Source of the DNA: Ferrithrix thermotolerans DSM 19514
GTDB lineage: Bacteria > Actinomycetota > Acidimicrobiia > Acidimicrobiales > CAIXPF01
Direction: 5' to 3'
Assembly (NCBI GenBank): GCA_945906305.1
Contig: CAMDQT010000014.1
Coordinates: forward strand, 1-64,000
DNA: 64,000 nt
The translations under genes and the position numbers were made by a program. Below the pieces are notes generated by a model, which worked only from the letters and a program-made list of their open reading frames with translations, did not search any database and had not been told where the DNA came from. Below, piece after piece: positions 50,636-55,443 of the stretch. Position 1 is the stretch's first letter. Every line of letters begins with the position of its first letter.

Positions 50636-53600
50636 ATGGCGGGGGCAACGGGCTGGATGGTCCTACGGCTGCGTGACGGTGACGCGTCGGGCAACTTGGT
50701 GTTGCGACGGGTTCGAGACGACGCGCTGGTTCGCGATCTGGCCCGCTCGTTGAGCGGTGGCGAGGGTGACGCCTTGGTGGTGGATGGCCGCCCAACCCGG
50801 CCCACAGACCGCATCGATGAGGTAGGCCTGTGCCAAGGCAGCACCGTTCGGCGCGTGTTGGCCGGTGAGGGTCCAACCGACGCGATGGCCGTCTGCGGTG
50901 TTGGGTCTGGCGCGATGCTCCGTCTGGTCAGCGGTAGCGGTCTTGATTGCGGTCGGTGCCTTGAGATGTCCCCCGGTATCTACCTGCTCGGCACCTCGGC
51001 CGCGTGCGATCTGGTGCTGCACGATTGTGGTGTCGAGCCACTGCACGCTTCGCTGGAGGTCGGCGCCACGGGTGAGGTTGTCGTGAGCTGGCTGCACGGT
51101 GCCGGCGATCCAGCGGGTCACCGTCTCCTGGCGGGCGAAGTCCTACGGATCGGTCGCACCGAATGGTGTTTGGAGGCGATTCAGCGCGATTCGGTCCGGA
51201 GTCGGGTCGATCCGCGATCCGATCGTGGTCCTCGGGCCACGATGGTGCTGAATCGGCCTCCCCGAACACGTTCGCCAGTTAGGGCCGAGCGGGTGGTGTT
51301 GCCGCTCGCACCGGCCGCCGCTCATGCCACGCCGTTCGCGGTGGCCAGCGTGGTGCTGCCGTTGGTGATCTCCGCCGCGCTGGTGGTGATCAGCGGAAAT
51401 TGGGCCTTCGCCATGCTCACGGCGCTGTCGCCTCTCTTGGCCGCGACGACGTGGTGGACGTCGCGACGTTCAGCCCGCAGGGTCAGCCGGGGCGAACGTC
51501 GTCGATTCGCCACGGAACTGGACCGTTTCTCCGCCGCGTTGGACAGGGCACGGGCCAGTCACGACGCGGAGCTGGCCCAGCGCAGTGTCGGCCTGGCCGA
51601 ACTGGTGCGCCGGGTGCAGCGTGTGTCGCCGACGTTGTGGGAGCGTCGGCTCGATCATCCCGATGCCGCTCGGGTCCTGCTGGGCGGAGCCCTCCAACCA
51701 TGGCATGCGCCCGCGGTGATTGATGGCTGGACGGATTCGCGTTGCGTTGACCCGGCGCTGCTCGCCCGCGTGGAGGCGGCGGGGGATATGGCATTCGGAC
51801 CGGTGGAAGTCGACCTGCTCCGCCATTCGGTGCTGGGCATCGTCGGCGATCGCGAGGCGGCCTGCGCGGTGGCCCGCAGCGTGCTGGTGCAGCTTGCGGT
51901 GCATCACGGTCCGGCCGACTTCGCTTTGTTGGTGGTGGCCGCATGCACCGTGCAGTGGTCGTGGACGGATTGGTTGCCACACGCTCAAAGCATTGCGGGG
52001 TCGGGCACTTCGGAGGTGGAAGCCGTCCTGGCCCACGCCCGTAGGGGGTCGATCTCCGGGAGCGCCCCGGGGTTCGGGGGCCGAGGATCGGACGACCGGC
52101 GCGATGCATCGGGCCGCGTCGGTGCCACCGATGGCGTGCCGGGCCAATTGCGGCGGCTGTTGGTTGTGGTCGACGACGAAGCGGCCTGGGCGGCGCGGGC
52201 GGCACCGGTGCGGGCCCTGCTTCGGGGCGAGGCGGGCCCCCTCATCGGTGTCGTTGTGGCCGCCAGCGCCGACCGGTTGCCCGCCATGTGCCGTGTCGTG
52301 CTTGACGTGAGCGCCAATGGCTCTGGCCGCTTGACCACGATGCACGACGGTAGCTCGGTGGGCGGGATCGTGCTCATGGGAGCCTCGGCGGATACCGCCG
52401 AAGGGCTGGCGGCGGACCTTGCCCGCTTCGAGGATCCTGACCTGGCGTTGCCCCATGCGGGCCTGCCGAGCCAGGTCGGCTTGGTCGACCTGTTGGGACC
52501 GGCCGAGGACGGCTTGGACGCCCTGATCGCCCGACGGTGGGCGGCGTCGGCGTCGGACCCCGACGAGGTGGGACTGCGGACGACCCTTGGAATCGGTGCT
52601 GACGGCCCGTTGACGGTGGACCTCGTGGCCGATGGCCCGCATGCGCTGGTCGCTGGTACGACCGGTGCCGGCAAAAGCGAACTTCTTCGTAGCTGGGTCG
52701 CGGCGCTTGCGGCGAGCTACTCGCCTGCAATGTGCAACCTGGTCCTTTTGGACTTCAAAGGCGGCAGTGCGTTCGATGCCTGCGCGGCGCTGCCCCACAC
52801 CGTGGCCGTGGTGAGCGATCTCGACGGCGAGTTGGCCGATCGGGTGCTGCAATGTCTGGCGGCCGAGCTTCGCCACCGCGAACAGGTGCTGCGCGACGCC
52901 GGCGCGCTCGACCTCACTGAGTTGCATGTTCGTGGCGTCGCAACGGGCACGTTGGCTGCATTGGCCCGTCTGGTGGTGGTCGTCGACGAGTTCGCCACGT
53001 TGGCCAAGGAGCAGCCCCGATTCCTGGAGTCTCTCGTCGGCATCGCCCAGCGCGGGCGCAGCCTGGGTGTTCACCTCATCCTGGCTACTCAGCGTCCCGC
53101 GGGCGTGGTGAGCGAGCAGATCAAAGCGAATACCAACATCCGTATCGCGCTGCGAGTGCAGGATCGGTCCGACTCGCTCGACGTGATTGAACGGCCCGAT
53201 GCGGCCGATCTGGCCCGGCATCTGCCTGGCCGGGCCTACGTGCGGCTCGGCCGTCACGATGTCGCCCTCGTGCAGACCGCTTTCAGCGGCAGCGTCGGCC
53301 GGGACGGCCTGACCAGCACGGTCGAGGTCTTCGAGCCGCCCCCCCACGTGGCCCCAGGTCCTCGGCCCTGGCTCGGCGGTGATACCGGCGAGCACCGCAG
53401 TAGCAGCGTCACGGGCCAGGCTCAGCCCCTTGGTTCCAGCGAGGTTTCAACCGCTGCTGGCGAGGACCATCTCGCTCGGATCATCGGCGCGGCTCGGCGC
53501 GTCGCGACGCTCCAGGCCTTTCCGCCTCCTCGGGTGCCTTGGCCCGAACCGCTGCCCGACCGGGTGGGCCGCGCCGACCTGCTCGCAGCTCGAAGTGCCG

Positions 53601-55075
53601 CCCCGACGATCCCGTCGAGCGTGGCGTTTTATCTGCTCGACGACCCGGAGTACCAGCGCCGGGTGGTCGCAGGCTGGGACCCGCAGCAAGGCAACCTGCT
53701 GATCTTCGGTACCACCGGCAGCGGCGCAACGAGTGCGTTGGTTGCGCTGGTGGCTGCCACTGCGGCTCGCCTCGGGCCCGAGGCGAGCCATGTCCACATC
53801 TTCGGGGACGACCCCGCGTTGCTCGGCCTCGGGTTGCTCCCGCACCTCGGGACCGTGGTACGAGGAGCCGATGTCGAAGCCCGTGCACGGCTGCTGTGGT
53901 TTCTTGACAACGAGTTGAAGCGGCGCCGCGACCGGGGACAATTGCTGCTACCGGACACCGAGCTCTCGCCGACGGCACCGCCCCAGGTTCTGGTCGTGAT
54001 CGACGCGCTTGGGTCCCTCCTGGCCGAATTGCACGGCACCACTGAGTTCTACGAGGAGGCCGATCGCTTGGAGCGAATCTTTCGCGATGGCCCTGCCTAT
54101 GGGTTGTACACCGTGGCCACCGCGGCGACGGTGTCTTCGGTACGGCACTCGCTGCTGGCCTCGGTACAGCAGCGCATTGTCCTACGCACCGGCGATCCAC
54201 TCGATGCCCGTCAGCTTGGCGTGGCACCGGTTGGGGGTCCACCAGGCCGTGGTCGTGAGGCCCACCGCGGCCGCCTCCTGCAGGTGATCGATCCCAGGGA
54301 AGTGGGACAGGGACTGCAAAGCCTGGCTCGACGCTGGCCTGCGCCGCAACCGGATCGGGCGGCATTCGTGGCCGGACATCTGCCCGACGTGGTGTGCGAG
54401 TCGGTCCTCGAGGGCGGCGAAGCCCGAGGCCCGGACGCGCCTGGCGAGGGACGCACCGATTGCTGGATGCCAATGGGGTTGGGCGGTTCTGATCTGAGCG
54501 TGCGGGGCTGGTGGCTGGGCCCAGGGTCGGCCGCGCTGGTGGCCGGACCGCGTCGCTCGGGACGATCCAACGTCCTGGTGGGCCTGGCTCGGCGGTTCGG
54601 TTCTGACCGTGGCACTGCGACGGTGCTTTGTTGGACACCGCGGCCATCCCCGTTGCGCCAGGTGGTTGCCGCGACCCATTTCCATGGCGATCAGCCCGGA
54701 GCGGACCTGGCCCAACTCGTGGCCCAGGCCAAGGACCGCGGGCGTCGTCTGCTGCTCGTGGATGACGCCGAGGACACCGCGGACCCCACCGGCTTGGTGT
54801 CAGCGGCCCTTGCCGGCGGCTGGGTGGTGGTTGCCGCGGGACGATCCGACGCACTTCGCGGCTCCTTCGGGCATTGGAGCAGGCAGCTTCGCGGCTCCGG
54901 CCAGGGCTTGATCCTGCGGCCCGATGTGGACCTCGATGGTGAGCTGCTGGGGGTACGGCTGCCGCGCCGGGCGGAGTCGTCGCTTCGACCGGTTGGTCGG
55001 GCTTACCTCGTCGCTGATGACGAGTTGGCGCTCGTGCAGTGTTTCCTGCTCGCAGACCGCCGCGGGGCAGGATAA
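50636..55075 (+). CDS. EssC/EccC-like FtsK/SpoIIIE ATPase of a type VII secretion-like system
   Basis: A 1479-residue membrane ATPase, expected to drive WXG100 protein export. Residues 6-80 look ubiquitin-like. Residues 90-180 form an FHA-like domain (GIYLLGTSAACDLVLHD). Two membrane helices follow at about 234-273, then three ATPase modules. The first is intact: Walker A GTTGAGKS (674-681), Walker B VVVVDEF with Asp784-Glu785, then ATQRPAG. The second has GTTGSGAT, with Ala1031 in place of Lys. The third has GPRRSGRS, with Arg1310 in place of Lys. N-terminal FHA plus a single chain resembles Firmicute EssC more than split mycobacterial EccCa/EccCb. The WXG100 gene follows after 86 nt. Confidence 0.88.
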   Translation: MAGATGWMVLRLRDGDASGNLVLRRVRDDALVRDLARSLSGGEGDALVVDGRPTRPTDRIDEVGLCQGSTVRRVLAGEGPTDAMAVCGVGSGAMLRLVSGSGLDCGRCLEMSPGIYLLGTSAACDLVLHDCGVEPLHASLEVGATGEVVVSWLHGAGDPAGHRLLAGEVLRIGRTEWCLEAIQRDSVRSRVDPRSDRGPRATMVLNRPPRTRSPVRAERVVLPLAPAAAHATPFAVASVVLPLVISAALVVISGNWAFAMLTALSPLLAATTWWTSRRSARRVSRGERRRFATELDRFSAALDRARASHDAELAQRSVGLAELVRRVQRVSPTLWERRLDHPDAARVLLGGALQPWHAPAVIDGWTDSRCVDPALLARVEAAGDMAFGPVEVDLLRHSVLGIVGDREAACAVARSVLVQLAVHHGPADFALLVVAACTVQWSWTDWLPHAQSIAGSGTSEVEAVLAHARRGSISGSAPGFGGRGSDDRRDASGRVGATDGVPGQLRRLLVVVDDEAAWAARAAPVRALLRGEAGPLIGVVVAASADRLPAMCRVVLDVSANGSGRLTTMHDGSSVGGIVLMGASADTAEGLAADLARFEDPDLALPHAGLPSQVGLVDLLGPAEDGLDALIARRWAASASDPDEVGLRTTLGIGADGPLTVDLVADGPHALVAGTTGAGKSELLRSWVAALAASYSPAMCNLVLLDFKGGSAFDACAALPHTVAVVSDLDGELADRVLQCLAAELRHREQVLRDAGALDLTELHVRGVATGTLAALARLVVVVDEFATLAKEQPRFLESLVGIAQRGRSLGVHLILATQRPAGVVSEQIKANTNIRIALRVQDRSDSLDVIERPDAADLARHLPGRAYVRLGRHDVALVQTAFSGSVGRDGLTSTVEVFEPPPHVAPGPRPWLGGDTGEHRSSSVTGQAQPLGSSEVSTAAGEDHLARIIGAARRVATLQAFPPPRVPWPEPLPDRVGRADLLAARSAAPTIPSSVAFYLLDDPEYQRRVVAGWDPQQGNLLIFGTTGSGATSALVALVAATAARLGPEASHVHIFGDDPALLGLGLLPHLGTVVRGADVEARARLLWFLDNELKRRRDRGQLLLPDTELSPTAPPQVLVVIDALGSLLAELHGTTEFYEEADRLERIFRDGPAYGLYTVATAATVSSVRHSLLASVQQRIVLRTGDPLDARQLGVAPVGGPPGRGREAHRGRLLQVIDPREVGQGLQSLARRWPAPQPDRAAFVAGHLPDVVCESVLEGGEARGPDAPGEGRTDCWMPMGLGGSDLSVRGWWLGPGSAALVAGPRRSGRSNVLVGLARRFGSDRGTATVLCWTPRPSPLRQVVAATHFHGDQPGADLAQLVAQAKDRGRRLLLVDDAEDTADPTGLVSAALAGGWVVVAAGRSDALRGSFGHWSRQLRGSGQGLILRPDVDLDGELLGVRLPRRAESSLRPVGRAYLVADDELALVQCFLLADRRGAG

Positions 55076-55079
55076 ATGC

Positions 55080-55108
55080 CTGACATAACATGATATATCA
55101 TGTAGTTT
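55080..55108 (+). promoter_or_regulatory. Promoter of the WXG100 gene
   Basis: CTGACA (55080-55085), a 17-nt spacer and TAGTTT (55103-55108) fit a sigma-70-type promoter. The region is AT-rich against the GC-rich surroundings. The transcript would have a leader of about 47 nt. Confidence 0.55.
55088..55103 (+). promoter_or_regulatory. Perfect 16-bp palindromic operator
   Basis: ACATGATATATCATGT is its own reverse complement and fills the spacer between the -35 and -10 elements, the position of a repressor operator. Confidence 0.65.
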
Positions 55109-55120
55109 GAATGTACTACA
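55101..55120 (+). repeat. Inverted repeat TGTAGT-N8-ACTACA
   Basis: Two 6-bp arms (55101-55106 and 55115-55120) around 8 nt span the -10 element and the expected transcription start. It may be a second operator. Confidence 0.5.
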
Positions 55121-55161
55121 TTCGAGGCCGATGGCGTCGAAGGACTGAGAGGGCGGAAGTC

Positions 55162-55443
55162 ATGTCAGTGATCATCAAGTCCACACCGGAAGCGATCGGG
55201 GCCATTACCACGATGGCAGCCATCATCAACGGCGGTCTGACCGAACAAGTGCAGGCCCTCGCCGGGGCCGGGGACACCGCCGGCGACCCGGCGAACTGGG
55301 ACGGCCCGCTGGCGGTCCAATTCCGGTCGGTGTGGGGTCAAACCAAGGCCGATCTCCAGCGCCTGTTAGGAGATCTGGCCGAGCTGAGGGGACGTCTGGC
55401 GATCGTGCAGCAGAACATCCAGGCCGCCGGTGGTGCTGGCTGA
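55162..55443 (+). CDS. WXG100 family protein (EsxA-like)
   Basis: A 93-residue protein with the two-helix hairpin layout of type VII secretion substrates: helix 1 about 8-40, the turn with Trp46-Asp47-Gly48, helix 2 about 50-88. It has no signal peptide and no Y-x3-D/E tail motif, as in Firmicute-type WXG proteins. ATG 55162 gives the canonical length; the frame is also open from 55111, but that would begin inside the inverted repeat. It follows the EssC-like ATPase and has its own promoter and operator. Confidence 0.85.
   Translation: MSVIIKSTPEAIGAITTMAAIINGGLTEQVQALAGAGDTAGDPANWDGPLAVQFRSVWGQTKADLQRLLGDLAELRGRLAIVQQNIQAAGGAG

Follow-up and report, generated by a model that had tools for sequence, protein, structure and literature searches.

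The ATPase–WXG100 intergenic region

The 64,000-nucleotide stretch analysed here (the window; contig CAMDQT010000014.1, Ferrithrix thermotolerans DSM 19514) carries a gene for an EssC/EccC-like ATPase of the FtsK/SpoIIIE type followed by a gene for a WXG100-like protein, with 86 bp between the ATPase stop codon and the WXG100 ATG. This gap holds a pair of promoter-like hexamers together with two palindromes, and we propose that its AT-rich stretch is probably a housekeeping-type promoter lying between the two genes and adding to the WXG100 transcript. The features referred to below are as follows.

50636–55075, + strand: gene for the EssC/EccC-like FtsK/SpoIIIE-type ATPase, with an N-terminal FHA-like (Yop-YscD_cpl) domain
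55080–55085, + strand: candidate -35 element CTGACA, matching TTGACA at 5/6 positions; part of the top-scoring hexamer pair in the gap (score 7.38)
55088–55103, no strand: perfect 16 bp palindrome ACATGATATATCATGT, present once in the genome and absent from relatives
55103–55108, + strand: candidate -10 element TAGTTT, 17 nt after the -35 element, matching TATAAT at 3/6 positions
55109–55123, no strand: second palindrome, 15 bp, GAATGTA-C-TACATTC, across the expected start site
55122–55142, + strand: predicted hairpin TTCGA-G-GCC-GAT-GGC-G-TCGAA in the 5' untranslated region (5'-UTR), just upstream of the ribosome-binding site
55162–55443, + strand: gene for the WXG100-like protein (93 aa), its start backed by a conserved GGCGGAA ahead of the ATG

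The base composition of the gap sets it apart. The window is 66% GC, and the AT-richest 60-mer within it, which contains ACATGATATATCATGT, reaches 65% AT compared with 57% for the runner-up, in agreement with the first-pass annotation, which had called the stretch strikingly AT-rich. Background statistics were taken from 464 kb of this genome, made up of 400 kb of sampled stretches and the 64 kb window; AT islands of this strength occur five times within it, and the island in the gap is the only one of the five with an inverted repeat. The strongest island in the sampled 464 kb, at 73% AT in a genome of 66% GC, lies elsewhere (L037, 6458–6610).

Promoter-like hexamers in the gap

Promoters of the sigma-70/sigma-A type have hexamers close to TTGACA and TATAAT, 16–18 nt apart, with transcription starting about 7 nt past the -10 element. 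We regard a promoter within the ATPase–WXG100 gap as likely on the ground that hexamer pairs of promoter type are found again in the corresponding gaps of relatives. These relatives are actinobacterial metagenome-assembled genomes (Acidimicrobiia, Acidimicrobiales or Actinomycetota), mostly Acidimicrobiia, and most of them retain the gene order ATPase then WXG100; three belong to the same genus (G001, G002 and G003), of which G001 and G003 are the closest. G002 has TTGATT-18-TACCCT and G009 has TTGACA-16-TACAAT, each with a distance to the start codon close to that of the pair in the window. Promoter scores exceed those of dinucleotide shuffles across 24 other order-level gaps (Fisher p about 1.4e-9), although this value is optimistic: the 24 relatives include close kin, and for several of them the gene upstream was not identified as the ATPase. 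Gap by gap, the score reaches p < 0.05 against dinucleotide shuffles in 10 of 25. In all three same-genus relatives the gene pair is kept, the gap measures 78–87 bp and an AT island is present (62–68% AT over 40 bp compared with about 26–29% in the surrounding loci).

Besides the two limits on the Fisher test, several results weigh against the proposed promoter. Compared with shuffles of the same AT-rich region, CTGACA-17-TAGTTT gives only p = 0.19, and a stricter sigma-70 scan called no promoter in the gap, because TAGTTT matches TATAAT at just half of its positions. The promoter weights are generic and E. coli-like, and were not trained on this phylum. Neither of the closest relatives has a clear -35/-10 pair, and in G004, whose gap is 33 bp long and GC-rich, the promoter signal is absent.

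The score within the range of shuffles would also fit relaxed AT-rich intergenic DNA that serves as neither promoter nor operator, as would the palindrome, given that gapless 16-mer palindromes are common (see below). We regard such a chance origin as highly unlikely, as islands this AT-rich are rare, the island is held in place across the genus, and strong promoter pairs occupy the matching gap in more distant relatives.

If the hexamers do act as a promoter, transcription would most likely start near 55115. We infer that this promoter would give the WXG100 partner more transcript than the ATPase, its activity and the rationale of an excess of partner being part of the same supposition. Read-through from the ATPase gene would be expected to add to the WXG100 transcript, since no terminator-like site was called in the gap that separates the two genes, and the transcription of the two is probably only partly independent. 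The first-pass annotation had placed a promoter here and had the WXG100 protein switched independently of its ATPase; the promoter stands as likely, whereas independent switching is borne out only in part, given the expected read-through.

A separate promoter for a WXG100 gene has a counterpart in Staphylococcus aureus: a start site has been mapped for esxA itself, whose transcript is about 100 times as abundant as that of essC (PMC4285178). The likeness to esxA, a gene of the ess cluster of type VIIb secretion, lies in a promoter dedicated to a WXG100 gene, predicted in the present case from sequence; the arrangement differs in that here the WXG100 gene comes after the ATPase gene and the start site is inferred rather than mapped. 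What the computation shows is where these elements lie, that they sit in an AT island, that promoter-like hexamers turn up repeatedly in orthologous gaps, and that the palindrome described below is not conserved. The analysis suggests that a separate WXG100 promoter recurs in the ATPase–WXG100 pairs of this actinobacterial order, and we liken it to the esxA excess in S. aureus. Overall, a probable promoter of this kind is fairly ordinary.

Palindromes and the possibility of an operator

Direct reading confirms that ACATGATATATCATGT is perfectly self-complementary and that it lies, as first described, between CTGACA and TAGTTT at their 17 nt spacing, with the qualification that its final T doubles as the initial T of TAGTTT, an overlap of one base with the candidate -10 element. 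A second inverted repeat, first given as TGTAGT-N8-ACTACA, is likewise real and extends to ATGTAGT (55100–55106)-N8-ACTACAT (55115–55121), spanning 55100–55121, although a tighter repeat, the 15 bp palindrome at 55109–55123, had been overlooked. The centres of the 16 bp and 15 bp palindromes are 20.5 bp apart, or about two helical turns.

The length of ACATGATATATCATGT is by itself ordinary, because gapless palindromes with arms of at least 8 occur at 4.4 per 64 kb (32 in the 464 kb; five in the window). The AT composition of the region is not ordinary: at 75% AT, ACATGATATATCATGT is the sole AT-rich member of the 32. In dinucleotide shuffles, the probability of a gapless arm of at least 8 is 0.001 for the 86 bp gap and 0.003 for the narrower AT-rich core, rising to 0.007 and 0.016 respectively when loops of 0–10 are allowed, and shuffles of a 55 bp version of the region with any loop give 0.025, all before correction for the site having been picked out of 64 kb. 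We take this as moderate evidence for a palindrome beyond chance. A far longer perfect palindrome, the 26 bp GGCTCGCCTCGGGCCCGAGGCGAGCC, lies within the ATPase coding sequence at 53764–53789.

In classical repressor logic, operators lie between the -35 and -10 elements or at the start site. The gap has a symmetric site in the spacer, overlapping the promoter elements, and another near the start, and the first-pass annotation accordingly read the palindrome as a repressor operator. A dimeric regulator bound to the spacer palindrome would block polymerase, possibly joined by another dimer at the start-site palindrome, which lies on the same helix face. The perfect symmetry within the spacer (P 0.001–0.025 in local shuffles, according to the region and the loop size allowed), its AT-rich composition and its place in the one AT island with an inverted repeat are in keeping with this. 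So is the finding in G001 of a different inverted repeat, GTTGTGCA-N6-TGCACAAC, at the matching position (p = 0.005 against shuffles).

Conservation and copy number do not bear the operator out. Poor conservation in close relatives had been named beforehand as telling against it, as had a chance frequency of similar palindromes. None of the three species of the same genus carries ACATGATATATCATGT, no notable repeat is seen at the corresponding position in G003 or G002, and gapless palindromes as long as ACATGATATATCATGT are frequent in this genome. Among the 24 other order-level gaps, spacers show no excess of inverted repeats over shuffles (Fisher p 0.99). The search for further copies, which the first-pass annotation had suggested, found none of ACATGATATATCATGT with fewer than three mismatches in the 3.1 Mb assembly, and the sole site with three mismatches, on contig 3 and overlapping the start of a different gene, is within chance (0.05 expected per 64 kb). 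The core CATGATNNATCATG recurs with one mismatch at one further site in this genome, within a coding gene, and a relaxed core pattern searched across six genomes yielded just isolated one-mismatch sites. The second palindrome has no further genome copy at up to two mismatches. Nor do the two palindromes resemble the sites of one regulator, as their half-sites share only CAT and their spacing differs. Within G001 the repeat found there has no additional copy, whether exact or with one mismatch, and in the four genomes searched for it only two-mismatch sites were seen, all in G001 and fewer than for a reversed control. In contrast to classical operators, no regulator gene was recognised among the immediate neighbours of the gene pair, and neither a regulon nor cross-species conservation was found. 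Weighing these results together with the commonness of palindromes of this length, we consider an operator doubtful.

A single site in the genome is compatible with a regulator that has a single target. Because the 16 bp palindrome is found here, GTTGTGCA-N6-TGCACAAC in G001 and no recognisable repeat in G003 or G002, one may imagine an operator whose position is kept while its sequence is replaced between species, bound by a fast-changing regulator with a single target. This is improbable, but were it so, a minimal pair of ATPase and WXG100 protein would have a WXG100 partner that can be switched separately.

A further possibility is that the palindromes act in RNA, forming hairpins by which the ATPase transcript is terminated or trimmed at its 3' end. 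Two hairpins are predicted for the segment 55076–55130 (-13.3 kcal/mol, z = -2.4), and G001 (L005) has a 10 bp-arm repeat, TTATGCCTCC-N9-GGAGGCATAA, spanning the end of its ATPase gene at bases -116 to -88 relative to the start of the WXG100 gene. The stems in the window, however, are weak and AT-rich and are not followed by a run of T, no site resembling a terminator was called in the gap, and the palindromes are not conserved, so that we find this role very unlikely.

Returning to the proposed promoter, ACATGATATATCATGT is not a conserved part of its arrangement. The palindrome would be a by-product of the AT-rich spacer or, at most, a recent species-specific protein-binding site, and a striking palindrome in a single genome is insufficient ground for claiming an operator.

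The flanking genes and the 5'-UTR

The ATPase matches Pfam FtsK_SpoIIIE (PF01580, two stretches, E 2.2e-40) and PF16697 (E 1.4e-08), and its matches to TIGR03928 EssC (E 6.9e-118) and TIGR03924 EccCa (E 4.8e-90) are strong, notwithstanding that both fall under the curated equivalog cut-offs. EssC and EccC are the ATPases of type VII secretion, in which FtsK/SpoIIIE domains are repeated. Members of the WXG100 family are about 100 aa long, with two helices and a central W-x-G. The small protein matches Pfam WXG100 (PF06013) weakly (E 0.0018; 19 bits, cut-off 27.3), its best ortholog does so at E 3e-06, and profile matches connect it to the solved EsxB and EsxA structures; W46 and G48 are invariant across seven orthologs. 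An in-frame upstream ATG at 55111 was considered as its start and rejected, because it is the ATG at 55162 that is conserved together with the preceding GGCGGAA, which an alignment finds in four species.

The ATPase and the single WXG100-like protein (50636–55443) may constitute a minimal pair. A search of this genome for a relative of YukD found none, and the same search was positive in a B. subtilis control; the corresponding search for EccB had no match in any control genome and says nothing about the absence of EccB. A scan of viral contigs for the WXG100-like protein gave nothing.

At the place equivalent to the 5'-UTR hairpin at 55122–55142, hairpins of different sequence are found in G001, G003 and G002. 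The z scores at this place are about -2.7, -2.7, -3.2 and 0, and in the consensus, drawn from four sequences only, two of the seven pairs are changed on both sides.
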